A stretch of DNA of 64,000 nucleotides from the NCBI GenBank assembly GCA_036504095.1, contig DASXVS010000063.1, positions 1 to 64,000 of the forward strand, read 5' to 3'. Source of the DNA: Armatimonadota bacterium. Its GTDB lineage: Bacteria; Armatimonadota; DTGP01; JAKQQT01. The notes beneath the pieces were generated by a model. That model worked only from the letters and a program-made list of their open reading frames with translations. It did no database searches and was not told the origin of the DNA. This document shows positions 1 through 63,399 of the stretch, piece after piece; the stretch's first letter is position 1; each line of letters opens with the position of its first letter. The translations under genes were made by a program, and so were the position numbers.

Positions 1-135
1 CGTCGGGTCGTGGCTGTGGCTCTGGCTTCCTTCAGACCCCACCTCGCGGTGACGCCCTTGCCGTCGCTTAACGGTTCCGATTCCCTTTACCGTAGAGGAC
101 TTTCACCTCCGAGAACGGGCGCATGCCCGGCGTAC
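1..135 (-). mobile_element. Group II intron, 5' part (domain I), partial
   Basis: Read on the minus strand from 135 down to the window edge, the sequence begins GTACGCCGGGCATG and continues with GAGGTGAAAGTCCTCTA, GGCAAGGGCGTC and GAGGTGGGGTCTGAAGG. These are blocks I recognise from the 5' region (domain I) of bacterial group II introns, and the GTACG start resembles the usual GUGYG boundary. The intron-encoded reverse transcriptase would lie beyond the left edge. Small ORFs in this stretch are therefore not treated as genes. A terminator-like hairpin ends about 7 nt upstream of the inferred 5' splice site, which is typical of class C introns. The class and exact boundary are inferences. Confidence 0.75.
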
Positions 136-59668: not shown

Positions 59669-61045
59669 ATGGCACGGCACCGGAACGAGGACGTATTCGA
59701 CAGCGTGACAACCAGCCTGTGTTCGGTGTGCGCGGAGACAGTCCCCGCCCGGATTGTCCGCCGCGGAACTTCCGTGCACCTTCTAAAGCGCTGCCCCGCC
59801 CACGGGCCCCACGAGGAACTGCTGGAAGAGGACGCGAAGTTCTATATGCGCCGCGACGATTACCGCGCCCCTCCAACGCCGTCGAGCGTTGACACCGAGA
59901 TCAGGCTCGGGTGCCCGCATGACTGCGGGCTCTGCCCCGACCACGCCCAGCACACGTGCATCGGCCTCATTGAGGTGACAAACGCCTGCGACGCCGCTTG
60001 CCCCATCTGCTACGCCCGTGCGGGCGGCAACACGGTCCTCGATCTGGCGACCATCGGCAAAATGCTCGATGCATATCTCGAAGCCGAAAGCGGCAATGCG
60101 GAGATACTCCAGATCAGCGGCGGTGAACCAACGACCCACCCGCAGATTGTGGATATCATCCGACTTGCGCGAAACAAAGGCATCCGGTATGTGATGCTCA
60201 ATACGAACGGGATCCGGCTTGCGGAAGAACCGGGTTTTGCCGAATCACTGGCCGAATTCCACGGAGGGTTTGAGATATACCTCCAGTTCGACGGTTTCGA
60301 TCCGAAGGCATCGCGCGCGTTCAGAGGGACGGACCGCACCGGCACCCACCAGCGGGCGCTCGATCGCCTGGCCGCGACCGGAGTGCCGGCAACACTCGTC
60401 AACACCGTCGAGGCCGGGGTGAATGATGACCAGCTTGGACGTATTATCGAATTCGGACTCTCCTCTCCGGCGGTGAGGGGCATCAACTTCCAGCCTCTGG
60501 CCTATTTCGGAAACGCGGACCAAAGGCCCTCGGGCGGCCGGGTCACACTGACGGGCGTGATCAAGAGGATTAAGGAGCAGACGAACGGAATGCTTCGCCC
60601 GGATGATTTCATTCCGCTGCCGTGCGATCCGAACCGGGTCGCGTTCTCTTATCTGTACCGGCAAGGCGGGCGGTTCGTGCCGATGGCACGGCGTTCCGAT
60701 CTGCGCCAGTACCTTACCGAGACCGGCAACACCTTGGCGTTCTTCCCGAAAGATGCGCTGGCCCGGATATCCGAATCGTTTTGTTGCGGACAGACGTGTT
60801 CGTGCATCGCCGCCGTCAAGGACCTCATCCCGTTGATTCCGCTTGCACGACGAGCCGCCAGGGCAAAGGACAAGGTCGCATTCACCACCGAAAACTTCTT
60901 CCGCGTAACGGTCACTTCGTTCCTCGATCGCTACAACTTTGACCTCCAGTCGATGCAGATGGAATGCGTTCACGTGCTGACGCCGGACGGGCGGCGCATC
61001 CCATTTTCGGCGTACAACCTGTTTCACCGGGGGAAATGCCGATGA
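59669..61045 (+). CDS. Radical SAM enzyme, tetraether-lipid-synthase-like
   Basis: The ATG at 59669 (GGAG 7 nt upstream) gives 458 residues. The N-terminus has zinc-ribbon-like cysteines (SLCSVCAETVPARIV, KRCPAHGPHEELLEE) and a further Cys cluster (GCPHDCGLCPDHAQHTC). The radical SAM motif reads ACDAACPICYA (C107, C111, C114), with the GGEP motif in ISGGEPTTHP. The C-terminal part has CCGQTCSC. This combination is the pattern I know from Tes/MJ0619-type enzymes, which join lipid acyl/isoprenoid chains end to end. The bacterial role is unproven. Three genes overlap in series with methyltransferase and Lgt-like genes. Confidence 0.8.
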   Translation: MARHRNEDVFDSVTTSLCSVCAETVPARIVRRGTSVHLLKRCPAHGPHEELLEEDAKFYMRRDDYRAPPTPSSVDTEIRLGCPHDCGLCPDHAQHTCIGLIEVTNACDAACPICYARAGGNTVLDLATIGKMLDAYLEAESGNAEILQISGGEPTTHPQIVDIIRLARNKGIRYVMLNTNGIRLAEEPGFAESLAEFHGGFEIYLQFDGFDPKASRAFRGTDRTGTHQRALDRLAATGVPATLVNTVEAGVNDDQLGRIIEFGLSSPAVRGINFQPLAYFGNADQRPSGGRVTLTGVIKRIKEQTNGMLRPDDFIPLPCDPNRVAFSYLYRQGGRFVPMARRSDLRQYLTETGNTLAFFPKDALARISESFCCGQTCSCIAAVKDLIPLIPLARRAARAKDKVAFTTENFFRVTVTSFLDRYNFDLQSMQMECVHVLTPDGRRIPFSAYNLFHRGKCR

Positions 61046-61647
61046 GCGCTGAAACCGTCATATTCGTTTCGCGCCTGATCGTGCCGCTCTGCGCTTCCCT
61101 GGTGCTGACTGCCGTGGCGCTGAATTTCGCGCTGGCGGCTGACAGCGGCGCCGTCAAGGTGCGGACCCGCAGTCCCGTGGCAACCGCGTCGATGCTGGCC
61201 TTCCTGCTCGCCGTTTACGTCCTGATTCACCGGCACATTGGCGACTTTCGCGTGTTCTCGAACGCTATTTCGGCGGGCATTGCCGCAGCGGGGGCGGCGC
61301 TCGTTGCCGCGGGCGGCATCGTGAACGTTCTCGGTCGAATCAGGCTTGGAGGCAACTGGGCGAACCAGGTGACCGTGTACGAAGACCAAACGCTGGTGAG
61401 CACAGGCGTGTTCGGCCTTGTGCGCCACCCACTTTATGCTTCCCTGATCTGGATGTTCGTTGGCGCCTCGCTCGTGTACCAGAATGGCGCAGCACTCGCG
61501 GCGACGATGCTGATCTTCGTTCCCGCGATGCAGTATCGCGCATCTCTGGAGGAACAGCTGTTGGCGCGGCAATTCCCGGAATACGCCAGCTATCAGACGC
61601 GCGTGGGGCGGTTATTCCCCCGCATCTGGCGAAAGGTACGGCCATGA
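61042..61647 (+). CDS. ICMT-type integral membrane methyltransferase
   Basis: The ATG at 61042 overlaps the radical SAM stop (ATGA), giving 201 residues. There are four to five hydrophobic segments, and the conserved C-terminal block of isoprenylcysteine carboxyl methyltransferase and phospholipid methyltransferases: VYEDQTLVSTGVFGLVRHPLYASLIWM (in parts), then YRASLEEQLLARQFPEYASYQTRVGRLFP (in parts). These enzymes use SAM at the membrane. A lipid or a prenyl-type substrate is plausible. Its stop overlaps the next gene by 4 bp. Confidence 0.87.
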   Translation: MSAETVIFVSRLIVPLCASLVLTAVALNFALAADSGAVKVRTRSPVATASMLAFLLAVYVLIHRHIGDFRVFSNAISAGIAAAGAALVAAGGIVNVLGRIRLGGNWANQVTVYEDQTLVSTGVFGLVRHPLYASLIWMFVGASLVYQNGAALAATMLIFVPAMQYRASLEEQLLARQFPEYASYQTRVGRLFPRIWRKVRP

Positions 61648-62435
61648 ACCCAGACGCGCTTCCGTCAAACTGGGGACTTCGGGCCGTCCTGTTTCACGCG
61701 GGCGGCTTAGCCGTGCCGTCGTACGAAACGTTCGTCCTGCTGGCCATCGTCGCCGGTTTCATCGCTTACTGGCTGGCAGCGAGAAAGCAACCTGAGTTGG
61801 GGGACCGTTCAGCCTACCTGATCATGGCGGCGCTGGTCGGAGGGGTGTTCGGCGCGAAGGCGCCGGTGTGGGTGATGCATTACTGTGAAGTAGCGGCGGC
61901 GCACTCCCCACTGGCGTGGCTCTCCGGCAGAACAATCGTCGGCGGGCTCATCGGCGGAACGGCGGCAGTGGCTCTGACGCGTCCCTGGCTGGGAATGCGC
62001 GAGAGGTCCGGCAACCTGTTCGCGGTCGGAATGGCCCTCGCTCTAGCTGTCGGCCGCATCGGGTGTCTGCTGCGCGGATGCTGTTACGGGGTCCCAACCT
62101 CGCTGCCGTGGGGCCTGGACCTGGGCGACGGCATCCGCCGGCACCCCACCCAGCTCTACGAATCACTGTTTGCGTTCGGTCTCTTCGCGTGGCTCGTACG
62201 CGCTTCGCGTCGGCATCCGTCACCGGGAGCTATGTTCCGCACGTTCATGCTCGCGTACTTCTCGTTCCGGTTTGCCGTGGAGTTTCTGCGGTTCGAGCCG
62301 CGAACCGTGGCGGGCCTGACACTCGCGCAAATTGTCTCAATCGGCGTGGTGGGCTACTACTTGACGATCGGACGCATCGCCAATCATCCACCACTTCATG
62401 AGGTAGCACCATATGAAACCGTCCAAAGCAGCTGA
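61644..62435 (+). CDS. Lgt-like prolipoprotein diacylglyceryl transferase homologue
   Basis: The 263-residue membrane protein has about seven hydrophobic segments. The Lgt signature position reads ALAVGRIGCLLRGCCYG (residues 134-149), and the conserved HPTQLYES follows (167-174). In canonical Lgt the signature is GRIGNFxNGE; here the Asn residues are replaced by Cys-Leu-Leu-Arg-Gly-Cys-Cys, so this is a divergent paralogue that may not modify prolipoproteins. SGRTIVGGLIGG matches the Lgt SG-x-GG region. It is coupled by ATGA overlap to the methyltransferase. Confidence 0.85.
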   Translation: MNPDALPSNWGLRAVLFHAGGLAVPSYETFVLLAIVAGFIAYWLAARKQPELGDRSAYLIMAALVGGVFGAKAPVWVMHYCEVAAAHSPLAWLSGRTIVGGLIGGTAAVALTRPWLGMRERSGNLFAVGMALALAVGRIGCLLRGCCYGVPTSLPWGLDLGDGIRRHPTQLYESLFAFGLFAWLVRASRRHPSPGAMFRTFMLAYFSFRFAVEFLRFEPRTVAGLTLAQIVSIGVVGYYLTIGRIANHPPLHEVAPYETVQSS

Positions 62436-62673
62436 CTTCTTCATTGGCCTGGTCGGGATCTATCTGACAGGGGCATTGATGGCAATCCTGATGCCTGCGG
62501 TAGGGTTTGGTGATGAGGTATTACCGGTCGGCATCGTCGTCGCGATTGGACTGTGTATTTGGGCGGTCGCCCGGCAGCGTCCGTACATTGTCCTAGGGAT
62601 GGTAATGTCCATCGTGTTTCCCGCGCTCGCCTTTGGAGCCTGCACGCTATTACTCAGCGGGGTACAGTGGTGA
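62413..62673 (+). CDS. Small membrane protein, paralogue 1
   Basis: The 86-residue protein has three hydrophobic segments (FFIGLVGIYLTGALMAIL, VGIVVAIGLCIWAVA, LGMVMSIVFPALAFGACTLLL). It overlaps the Lgt-like gene by 23 bp. The N-terminus (KPSKAADFFIGLVGI) and the C-terminal FPALAFGACTL match the next gene, so the two are tandem paralogues. Function is unknown. Confidence 0.65.
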   Translation: MKPSKAADFFIGLVGIYLTGALMAILMPAVGFGDEVLPVGIVVAIGLCIWAVARQRPYIVLGMVMSIVFPALAFGACTLLLSGVQW

Positions 62674-62924
62674 ACCGGACTAAGCTTGGCGATTTCTTCA
62701 TCGGATTTCTGGGAATCACGGCGGTGGAGGCCTGTATCTATCTGATACTGAGGGAAAGCACCGCGTGGGGACTGATGGCCGTCATCGCCGGTGCTGTGTC
62801 GCTCTTGGCGGCCTTTCAAGCGAAGAGACCCTTTATAACGCTTGGAATCGTCGCCACCGCGGTCTTTCCGCTCATTGCGTTCGGCGCTTGTGTTGTCGAC
62901 GTCTTTCGGCATGGCTTTGACTGA
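62670..62924 (+). CDS. Small membrane protein, paralogue 2 (GTG start)
   Basis: The homologous reading starts VNRTKLGDFFIGFLGI at a GTG (62670) that overlaps the TGA of paralogue 1 (GTGA), giving 84 residues. It has the same three hydrophobic segments and the matching FPLIAFGACVVDV end. A longer reading from 62553 is inconsistent with the paralogue. It ends 10 bp before the next gene. Function unknown. Confidence 0.65.
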   Translation: MNRTKLGDFFIGFLGITAVEACIYLILRESTAWGLMAVIAGAVSLLAAFQAKRPFITLGIVATAVFPLIAFGACVVDVFRHGFD

Positions 62925-62934
62925 GGAGACGGAA

Positions 62935-63399
62935 ATGATAGGTTATGAACCTGTATCGGTTTCACGGAACGGCTTCCGATTCTGCCGGTGGTCGGTAACC
63001 GTGATGGTATGGATCGGGGTCATCTGGCGGGTTGAGGCCTTCATCTTGGCAGCAGCGCTCATCATGGCGGCCAGCGCGATCCTCACAATACGCAACGCCC
63101 CCATGATCTGGCTGTGGACGCAGACCGTCGACCGGGCGATCCCCTCACCCAGCGAAATGCTGGATGTTGGCGGGATGCGTTTGGCTCAATCCGTGGCAAC
63201 GTTCGCGCTGGGGGTTCCATGGCTTGTTCTCAACTACGGCCCTGCCTCCGCTTCGGAATCCATGTGGCGCATCCTGGTCTTTGTGGCTGGATTCAAGACC
63301 TTGGGTGCTCTGGGCTATTGCCCGGTATCGCGGATGTTCACATGCCTCATCAGCGGCGGAAACTGCTGCACGTGGCTGAAGGGGCGCAAGGCGGCGTGA
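62935..63399 (+). CDS. DUF4395-like membrane protein
   Basis: The ATG at 62935 follows GAGGAG and gives 154 residues with four hydrophobic segments. FRFCRWSVTVMVWIGVIW, DVGGMRLAQSVATFALGVPWL and the C-terminal LGYCPVSRMFTC resemble DUF4395 proteins, whose conserved Cys pair may be redox-active. It is the last gene of the radical SAM operon, in the same direction with a 10-bp gap. The role is unknown. Confidence 0.6.
   Translation: MIGYEPVSVSRNGFRFCRWSVTVMVWIGVIWRVEAFILAAALIMAASAILTIRNAPMIWLWTQTVDRAIPSPSEMLDVGGMRLAQSVATFALGVPWLVLNYGPASASESMWRILVFVAGFKTLGALGYCPVSRMFTCLISGGNCCTWLKGRKAA

Follow-up and report, generated by a model that had tools for sequence, protein, structure and literature searches.

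A six-gene operon in the first 64,000 nucleotides of contig DASXVS010000063.1 of an Armatimonadota bacterium (this 64,000-nt stretch is called the window; the assembly comprises 4.68 Mb in 80 contigs) points to a widespread, undescribed bacterial lipid-modification system. As judged from the sequences, this system would consist of a radical S-adenosylmethionine (SAM) protein of the tetraether lipid synthase (Tes) family, here called rSAM, an enzyme resembling the prolipoprotein transferase Lgt, and small membrane proteins with a conserved cysteine. Tentatively, the Lgt-like enzyme may place a glycerolipid on the cysteine of the small proteins, and rSAM may modify the lipid chain. The operon lies at 59669-63399 on the plus strand and has the following features.

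59669 to 61045, + strand: radical SAM protein of the Tes superfamily, 458 aa (profiles, tree, predicted fold)
61042 to 61647, + strand: ICMT/phospholipid-methyltransferase-type membrane enzyme, 201 aa (further in-frame ATGs at 61036 and upstream)
61644 to 62435, + strand: Lgt-like paralogue, 263 aa (Arg143/Gly154/Arg239 equivalents R138, G149, and R209; His103 replaced by V99)
62413 to 62673, + strand: mp4, small membrane protein, 86 aa (C-terminal end ...VFPALAFGAC77TLLLSGVQW)
62641 to 62643, + strand: codon of the lipobox-like conserved Cys77 of mp4
62670 to 62924, + strand: mp5, small membrane protein, 84 aa, GTG start, paralogue of mp4 (C-terminal end ...VFPLIAFGAC74VVDVFRHGFD)
62889 to 62891, + strand: codon of the lipobox-like conserved Cys74 of mp5
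62935 to 63399, + strand: DUF4395 membrane protein, 154 aa, with the Cys-rich tail GYCPVSRMFTCLISGGNCC

Association of the rSAM and Lgt-like genes

The cross-phylum survey covered the best 80 rSAM homologues in the named-genome collection. An Lgt-like gene was found nearby on the same strand in 70 of these 80 loci; the median gap between the two genes was 102 bp, and the distance was 300 bp or less in 51 loci. Seven of the 10 loci without an Lgt-like gene were near a contig end, and only L084, L085, and L119 had at least 3 kb on both sides. The 80 homologues belonged to Bacillota, Bacteroidota, Pseudomonadota, Acidobacteriota, Planctomycetota, Cyanobacteriota, Elusimicrobiota, Spirochaetota, Verrucomicrobiota (Methylacidiphilales), Melainabacteria, Actinomycetota, and Armatimonadota, plus Chloroflexota, and the association with the Lgt-like gene spans about a dozen phyla. 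The initial annotation had made its proposal depend on these genes recurring together elsewhere, and the rSAM and Lgt-like genes do so. Named relatives in the clade of the window rSAM include an uncultured Chthonomonas sp. and an Armatimonadetes metagenome-assembled genome (MAG).

The rSAM gene was present in 47 of 291 Armatimonadota genomes. Two Lgt-family genes were found in 36 of these 47 genomes, compared with 19 of the 244 genomes without rSAM (odds ratio 39, Fisher P = 1e-22, uncorrected for kinship). The 19 genomes with two Lgt-family genes and no rSAM homologue include G024 and G271 to G273. The cassette type of the window, with the ICMT-type and DUF4395 genes, was also detected in several other Armatimonadota, in one Elusimicrobiota, and in one Actinomycetota MAG. 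In G016 and G222, the same ICMT and DUF4395 cassette adjoins a distant rSAM clade in a rearranged gene order.

Other Tes-like proteins were seen in the same survey. Two more distant Armatimonadota clades (L013/L015/L038 and L014/L016-L018) lack the full GCPxDCGLCPxH block, and their genes are still linked to Lgt-like genes. In three Chloroflexota loci (L082, L084, and L100), a conserved SAM-dependent methyltransferase gene is located just downstream of the rSAM gene instead of an adjacent Lgt-like gene; the rSAM proteins of these loci were the nearest to archaeal Tes and TrsS in the tree.

Family and metal sites of the rSAM protein

The window rSAM scored 333 bits against the TrsS profile (NF045646) and 283 bits against the Tes profile (NF045702), with all other profiles far behind. 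Both scores are below the curated equivalog cut-offs, which are 490 bits for TrsS and 450 bits for Tes. The Lgt-linked relatives tested reached 281 to 337 bits (281 to 299 against Tes). The window rSAM is thus outside the Tes equivalog, and its Lgt-linked relatives are an unnamed third subfamily beside Tes and TrsS, because those tested reach neither cut-off. A true TrsS identity of the window protein was ruled out by the score and by the lack of an in-frame TGA.

The closest solved structure by sequence was archaeal Tes (7TOL, E = 6e-69). The tree also included five further radical SAM proteins from the same genome, one of them MoaA-like; in it, the rSAM family and archaeal Tes were united with 99/99 support, apart from these other proteins. 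The AlphaFold model of rSAM had a predicted local distance difference test score (pLDDT) of 85.7 and a predicted template modeling score of 0.89, with low confidence at residues 370 to 384, which hold the CxC motif. In Foldseek, this model matched Tes (7TOM) with a template modeling (TM) score of 0.83 and an E value of 5e-42; the runner-up, a maturase of ribosomally synthesized and posttranslationally modified peptides (RiPPs), had an E value of 4e-11. By sequence, tree, and predicted fold, rSAM is therefore a member of the Tes superfamily. Placement in a MoaA or peptide-maturase clade, which the initial annotation had named as the outcome that would speak against a Tes-like enzyme, is ruled out by the tree and by the fold match to Tes.

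The ligands of three metal sites, as identified in Tes (PMC9433317), correspond in the window rSAM to C18/C21/C42/H45 (rubredoxin-type site), C82/C86/C89/H92 (N-terminal [4Fe-4S] cluster), and C107/C111/C114 (radical SAM cluster). All of them are kept in the window protein and are invariant in the 80 homologues. C97, C319, the CxC at 377/379, and C433 are conserved across the bacterial family. In the C-terminal part, PLPC, CC (with CxC instead in the clade of the window), and xCVH take the place of the archaeal RCC and FC cysteines. The position of Tes Tyr459 is V436 in the window rSAM, and Tyr is not among the commonest residues in the 80 relatives; the position of Tes Met439 is T416, with Met in 46 of the 80. 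Met439 (labile) and Tyr459 are fully conserved in archaeal Tes, yet both are dispensable for Tes activity in vitro (PMC9433317). The chemistry of rSAM probably resembles that of Tes and probably acts on a hydrophobic chain. The Tes-like assignment in the initial annotation thus holds at the level of the superfamily but does not extend to Tes-like function, in view of the low Tes score, the loss of Tyr459 and Met439, and the rearranged C-terminal cysteines.

The Lgt-like paralogue

The model of the Lgt-like protein (pLDDT 88.8) matched Escherichia coli Lgt (5AZB) with an E value of 1e-7 and a TM score of 0.67. The same genome also has a canonical Lgt elsewhere, beside a signal-peptidase-II-like gene; this canonical Lgt scored 219.8 bits versus 117.7 bits for the Lgt-like protein. 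Against the curated NCBIfam Lgt cut-offs, the Lgt-like protein was too low in both cases (109.6 versus 334 bits and 64.6 versus 118.9 bits), and V99 occupies the position at which a catalytic H103 (or Y, W, or F) is expected of an Lgt. In the tree, the Lgt-like and canonical Lgt proteins were split with 100/99 support and in all 200 bootstrap trees.

Among 92 sequences of the Lgt-like family, the His103 position was V in 54, L in 25, and I in 5 (84 of 92). In E. coli Lgt, His103 has been proposed to serve as the base activating the acceptor cysteine (PMC13251419). The equivalents of Arg143, Gly154, and Arg239 and the HPxQLYE motif are kept in the family; R143 and R239 have been implicated in phosphatidylglycerol binding and catalysis, and the Lgt active site opens extracytoplasmically (PMC4728403). 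The loop in the head region is shorter (median, 17 residues versus 23 in Armatimonadota canonical Lgt), and the head domain of Lgt is reported to set protein-substrate specificity (PMC13251419). The family also has its own near-invariant Lys and Gly.

The third gene of the operon is an Lgt paralogue, unusual by its loss of His103, its shorter head loop, and its separate clade. The initial annotation had taken it for an abnormal Lgt from a changed signature. The Lgt-like protein has GRIGCLLRGCCYG, and GRIGCFLNGCCYG occurs in the canonical Lgt of this genome. The argument from the signature fails because this canonical Lgt carries it too and because N146C/E151C variants occur in distant Lgts (PMC13251419); the conclusion that the protein is unusual stands on the other evidence.

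Small membrane proteins and their conserved cysteine

The initial annotation listed three small membrane proteins and left them uninterpreted. They are two paralogues, mp4 and mp5, which are about 38% identical, and the longer DUF4395 protein, and the small proteins are probably the most informative part of the operon. For mp4, no Pfam or NCBIfam family was found, and a Pfam search with eight small proteins gave nothing above the cut-off. Profile searches seeded with the small proteins of the window reached those of Bacillota, cyanobacteria, and acidobacteria. Most rSAM/Lgt-like loci carry one to several membrane proteins of 60 to 150 residues with two or three transmembrane helices, often as tandem paralogues (two each in the window and in L044, two or three in G062/G064, and four in L076). 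The largest array seen, in a Holophagae MAG (L078:7946-10768), comprises at least five of these membrane proteins in tandem, adjoining the rSAM and Lgt-like genes, with a GGC/GSC/GTC-type cysteine.

The cysteine was conserved in 19 of 20 members (95%) of the window-seeded family and in 17 of 19 members (89%) of a Bacteroidota family that was aligned on its own. The start Met aside, it was the top-conserved column in both families, tied with two glycines in the window-seeded one. It follows a basic stretch and some 15 to 20 hydrophobic residues and is located 3 to 14 residues before the C terminus; the residues just before it are usually small, as in FGAC (mp4 and mp5), LGAC, LNAAC, and GFSVC. 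A strict rule for this cysteine was matched by 22 of 54 adjacent small proteins, compared with 8.9 ± 2.5 in 2,000 composition-preserving shuffles, whose maximum was 20. The strict test was adopted after a looser one, and both are reported, the looser one below with the objections. By the positive-inside rule, the cysteine is predicted to be extracytoplasmic, on the same side as the opening of the Lgt active site.

Operon layout and flanks

All six open reading frames were confirmed on the plus strand. ATGA overlaps join rSAM to the ICMT-type gene and the latter to the Lgt-like gene, a GTGA overlap joins mp4 to mp5, and mp5 and the DUF4395 gene are separated by 10 bp. This agrees with the tight packing described in the initial annotation except at the Lgt-like/mp4 junction, where the overlap is 23 bp. 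The operon is bordered by a divergent aminotransferase gene and a convergent isomerase gene, neither of which is part of it. A sigma-70 promoter and a terminator were sought in the operon region, and none was convincing.

Family matches of the operon proteins were well above chance, with E values of 3e-19 for radical SAM, 8e-14 for the HMPTM zinc ribbon (PF23545), 8e-11 for PEMT, 1e-9 for ICMT, 6e-34 for LGT, and 2e-7 for DUF4395. The second gene product is of the ICMT/phospholipid-methyltransferase type, as had been annotated, and exceeded the Pfam gathering scores of PF04191 (42.7 versus 25 bits) and PF04140 (38.9 versus 24 bits). It was below the equivalog cut-off for isoprenylcysteine methyltransferase (68.8 versus 160 bits). 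At the edge of the window (positions 1 to 53, minus strand), the sequence matches a domain of group II introns (RF02001 in Rfam; score, 36.2 bits), cut off on its 3' side.

Proposed mechanism and alternatives

The cysteine is proposed as a lipid acceptor because the Lgt paralogue adjoins multicopy proteins in which a lipobox-like cysteine is conserved best of all residues. Tes acts on lipid chains (PMC9433317); given that rSAM shares the fold and metal sites of such an enzyme, its proposed substrate is either the donor lipid or the product. Gene content, families, predicted folds, residue conservation, and the link across phyla come from the data, and the lipid substrate of rSAM, the acceptor role of the cysteine, the order of the steps, and the topology are inferred. 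The Lgt-like enzyme would bind phosphatidylglycerol via its conserved arginines at the outer face of the cytoplasmic membrane and move the diacylglyceryl group onto Cys77 of mp4 or Cys74 of mp5. On the cytoplasmic side, rSAM would alter unactivated carbons of the acyl chain with a 5'-deoxyadenosyl radical, either before or after the transfer. Proteins of the mp4/mp5 type would remain as uncleaved lipid-modified membrane proteins. In the subclade of the window, the ICMT-type methyltransferase and the DUF4395 protein may supply an extra step. A more specific form of this scheme is doubtful but conceivable, in which the Tes-family rSAM makes an altered glycerolipid and the Lgt paralogue without His103 attaches it to the cysteine of the C-terminal transmembrane helix without cleavage by signal peptidase II. 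This second bacterial lipoprotein pathway would exist alongside the classical one of Lgt, Lsp, and Lnt and would yield another kind of lipoprotein.

Several observations weigh against lipidation of the small proteins. The main objection is the loss of His103, whose position in the Lgt-like family holds V, L, or I, so that thiol transfer may be lost or may use another base. The rSAM protein and the conserved cysteine are predicted to be on opposite faces of the membrane. In the looser test, which accepted a cysteine at any helix end, 24 of 45 proteins matched, compared with 21.2 ± 3.1 in shuffles, which is not significant. A minority of the adjacent small proteins have no such cysteine or have it at the first helix, and some Lgt-linked loci show no recognizable small protein. 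In some lineages, for example Rhizobiales and Armatimonadota of the G105 type, it is the first helix that ends in the cysteine (VFCGGC and LIGGC).

Nearly as likely is a system that acts on free membrane lipids, which is the idea of the initial annotation minus the tetraethers. In that case, rSAM would alter the acyl chains of phosphatidylglycerol by coupling, by methyl-branch chemistry, or by sulfur chemistry. The acceptor to which the Lgt-like enzyme moves the diacylglyceryl group would be a small molecule or a lipid, and the small cysteine proteins would be scaffold or redox subunits. A Tes fold in which every N-terminal metal site is kept fits this explanation, as do the ICMT/PEMT-type methyltransferase gene in the operon and an Lgt-like protein that keeps the phosphatidylglycerol arginines without the thiol-activating His103. 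Tes made in E. coli binds bacterial phospholipids (PMC9433317). However, this explanation leaves the diverged tandem small proteins unaccounted for, in which cysteine is the best-conserved residue. It is also disfavored in that we know of no unusual lipid common to the hosts of the rSAM and Lgt-like genes.

It is improbable that rSAM modifies the small membrane proteins directly, in a RiPP-like manner, with the tandem copies as precursors that the Lgt-like enzyme lipidates or processes. Diverged tandem copies with a conserved cysteine do adjoin a radical SAM gene, but rSAM has no SPASM or precursor-recognition domain, its fold match to Tes is far ahead of that to RiPP maturases, and the conserved cysteine is predicted on the membrane face opposite to the cytosolic enzyme.

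The least probable explanation is a role of rSAM as a bacterial Tes or Mss in making membrane-spanning lipids of the iso-diabolic or branched glycerol dialkyl glycerol tetraether (brGDGT) type. A part in brGDGT synthesis has been proposed for bacterial Tes homologues (PMC8941075, PMC10087280), and tree and fold place rSAM in the Tes superfamily. In the comparison, which covered Tes and TrsS, however, the window rSAM and its Lgt-linked relatives tested are far below the Tes equivalog cut-off, Tyr459 is unconserved, the C-terminal cluster ligands differ, and archaeal Tes joins a TrsS-like protein and Chloroflexota proteins, some of which have no Lgt-like neighbor, instead of the Lgt-linked clade (87/96, long branches). 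The rSAM gene is also common in bacteria not known for membrane-spanning lipids, being widespread among ordinary bacteria, for example Paenibacillus and Chitinophaga; of the proposal in the initial annotation that the operon builds or caps membrane-spanning or otherwise modified lipids, the membrane-spanning part is thus one possibility only.

Significance

Bacterial homologues of Tes have already been noted without a function (PMC8941075, PMC9433317, PMC11868695). In the open-access literature, no description was found of a link between a Tes-like rSAM and an Lgt paralogue or small cysteine proteins; subscription papers were outside this search. The pairing of Tes-family and Lgt-family enzymes is an undescribed combination of known families. 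Bacterial Tes homologues have hitherto been assumed to be candidates for the synthesis of brGDGTs and other membrane-spanning lipids, which underlies palaeotemperature proxies. A large share of these homologues fall into the distinct Lgt-linked subfamily, and proof is needed before any of them is treated as a lipid-coupling enzyme. Should the small proteins prove to be lipidated at their cysteine, the system would be a new route to bacterial lipid-modified membrane proteins. The culturable hosts Paenibacillus, Brevibacillus, Chitinophaga, Lewinella, Oleiagrimonas, and Reyranella make the system testable.

Comparison with known systems

The window rSAM shares its whole-length fold with Tes (GDGT-MAS, MJ0619; 7TOL/7TOM), with TM scores of 0.83/0.76 and 29% identity, and the C/C/C/H rubredoxin-type site, the N-terminal CxxxCxxC...H, and the radical SAM CxxxCxxC are in register. 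In contrast to Tes, it is bacterial, linked to an Lgt-like gene, and below the Tes cut-off; it replaces Tyr459 and Met439 and bears another set of C-terminal cysteines. Bacterial Mss is reported to share the catalytic architecture of Tes by superposition (PMC13274423).

TrsS was the best profile match of rSAM, and the PLPC / C-C(U) / CVH cysteine pattern is common to both. The single TrsS-like locus seen differs in having no Lgt-like or small cysteine proteins nearby and in retaining an extra CC/FC pair. The gene of this type in an Armatimonadota genome (L012:3013-4392 in G021) carries a TGA in frame; the APC-TGA motif that includes it aligns with the CC of the Lgt-linked family. The selenocysteine of TrsS probably replaces a conserved C-terminal cysteine of the Lgt-linked family, since the in-frame TGA falls in the CC motif.

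The Lgt-like protein has the fold, R143, G154, R239, and HPxQLYE of Lgt (PF01790; E. coli 5AZB). It differs in forming a separate group with V, L, or I in place of His103, a shorter head loop, and its own Lys and Gly, and in being a second copy in a genome that also has a true Lgt. The small proteins resemble the type II lipobox in the order of a basic stretch, about 15 to 20 hydrophobic residues, small residues, and then cysteine. Unlike in the type II lipobox, this cysteine is mostly at the C-terminal helix of a protein with two or three transmembrane helices and not in an N-terminal signal peptide, and little or nothing follows it. The short head loop of the Lgt-like enzyme is consistent with putative substrates that have almost nothing after the cysteine.

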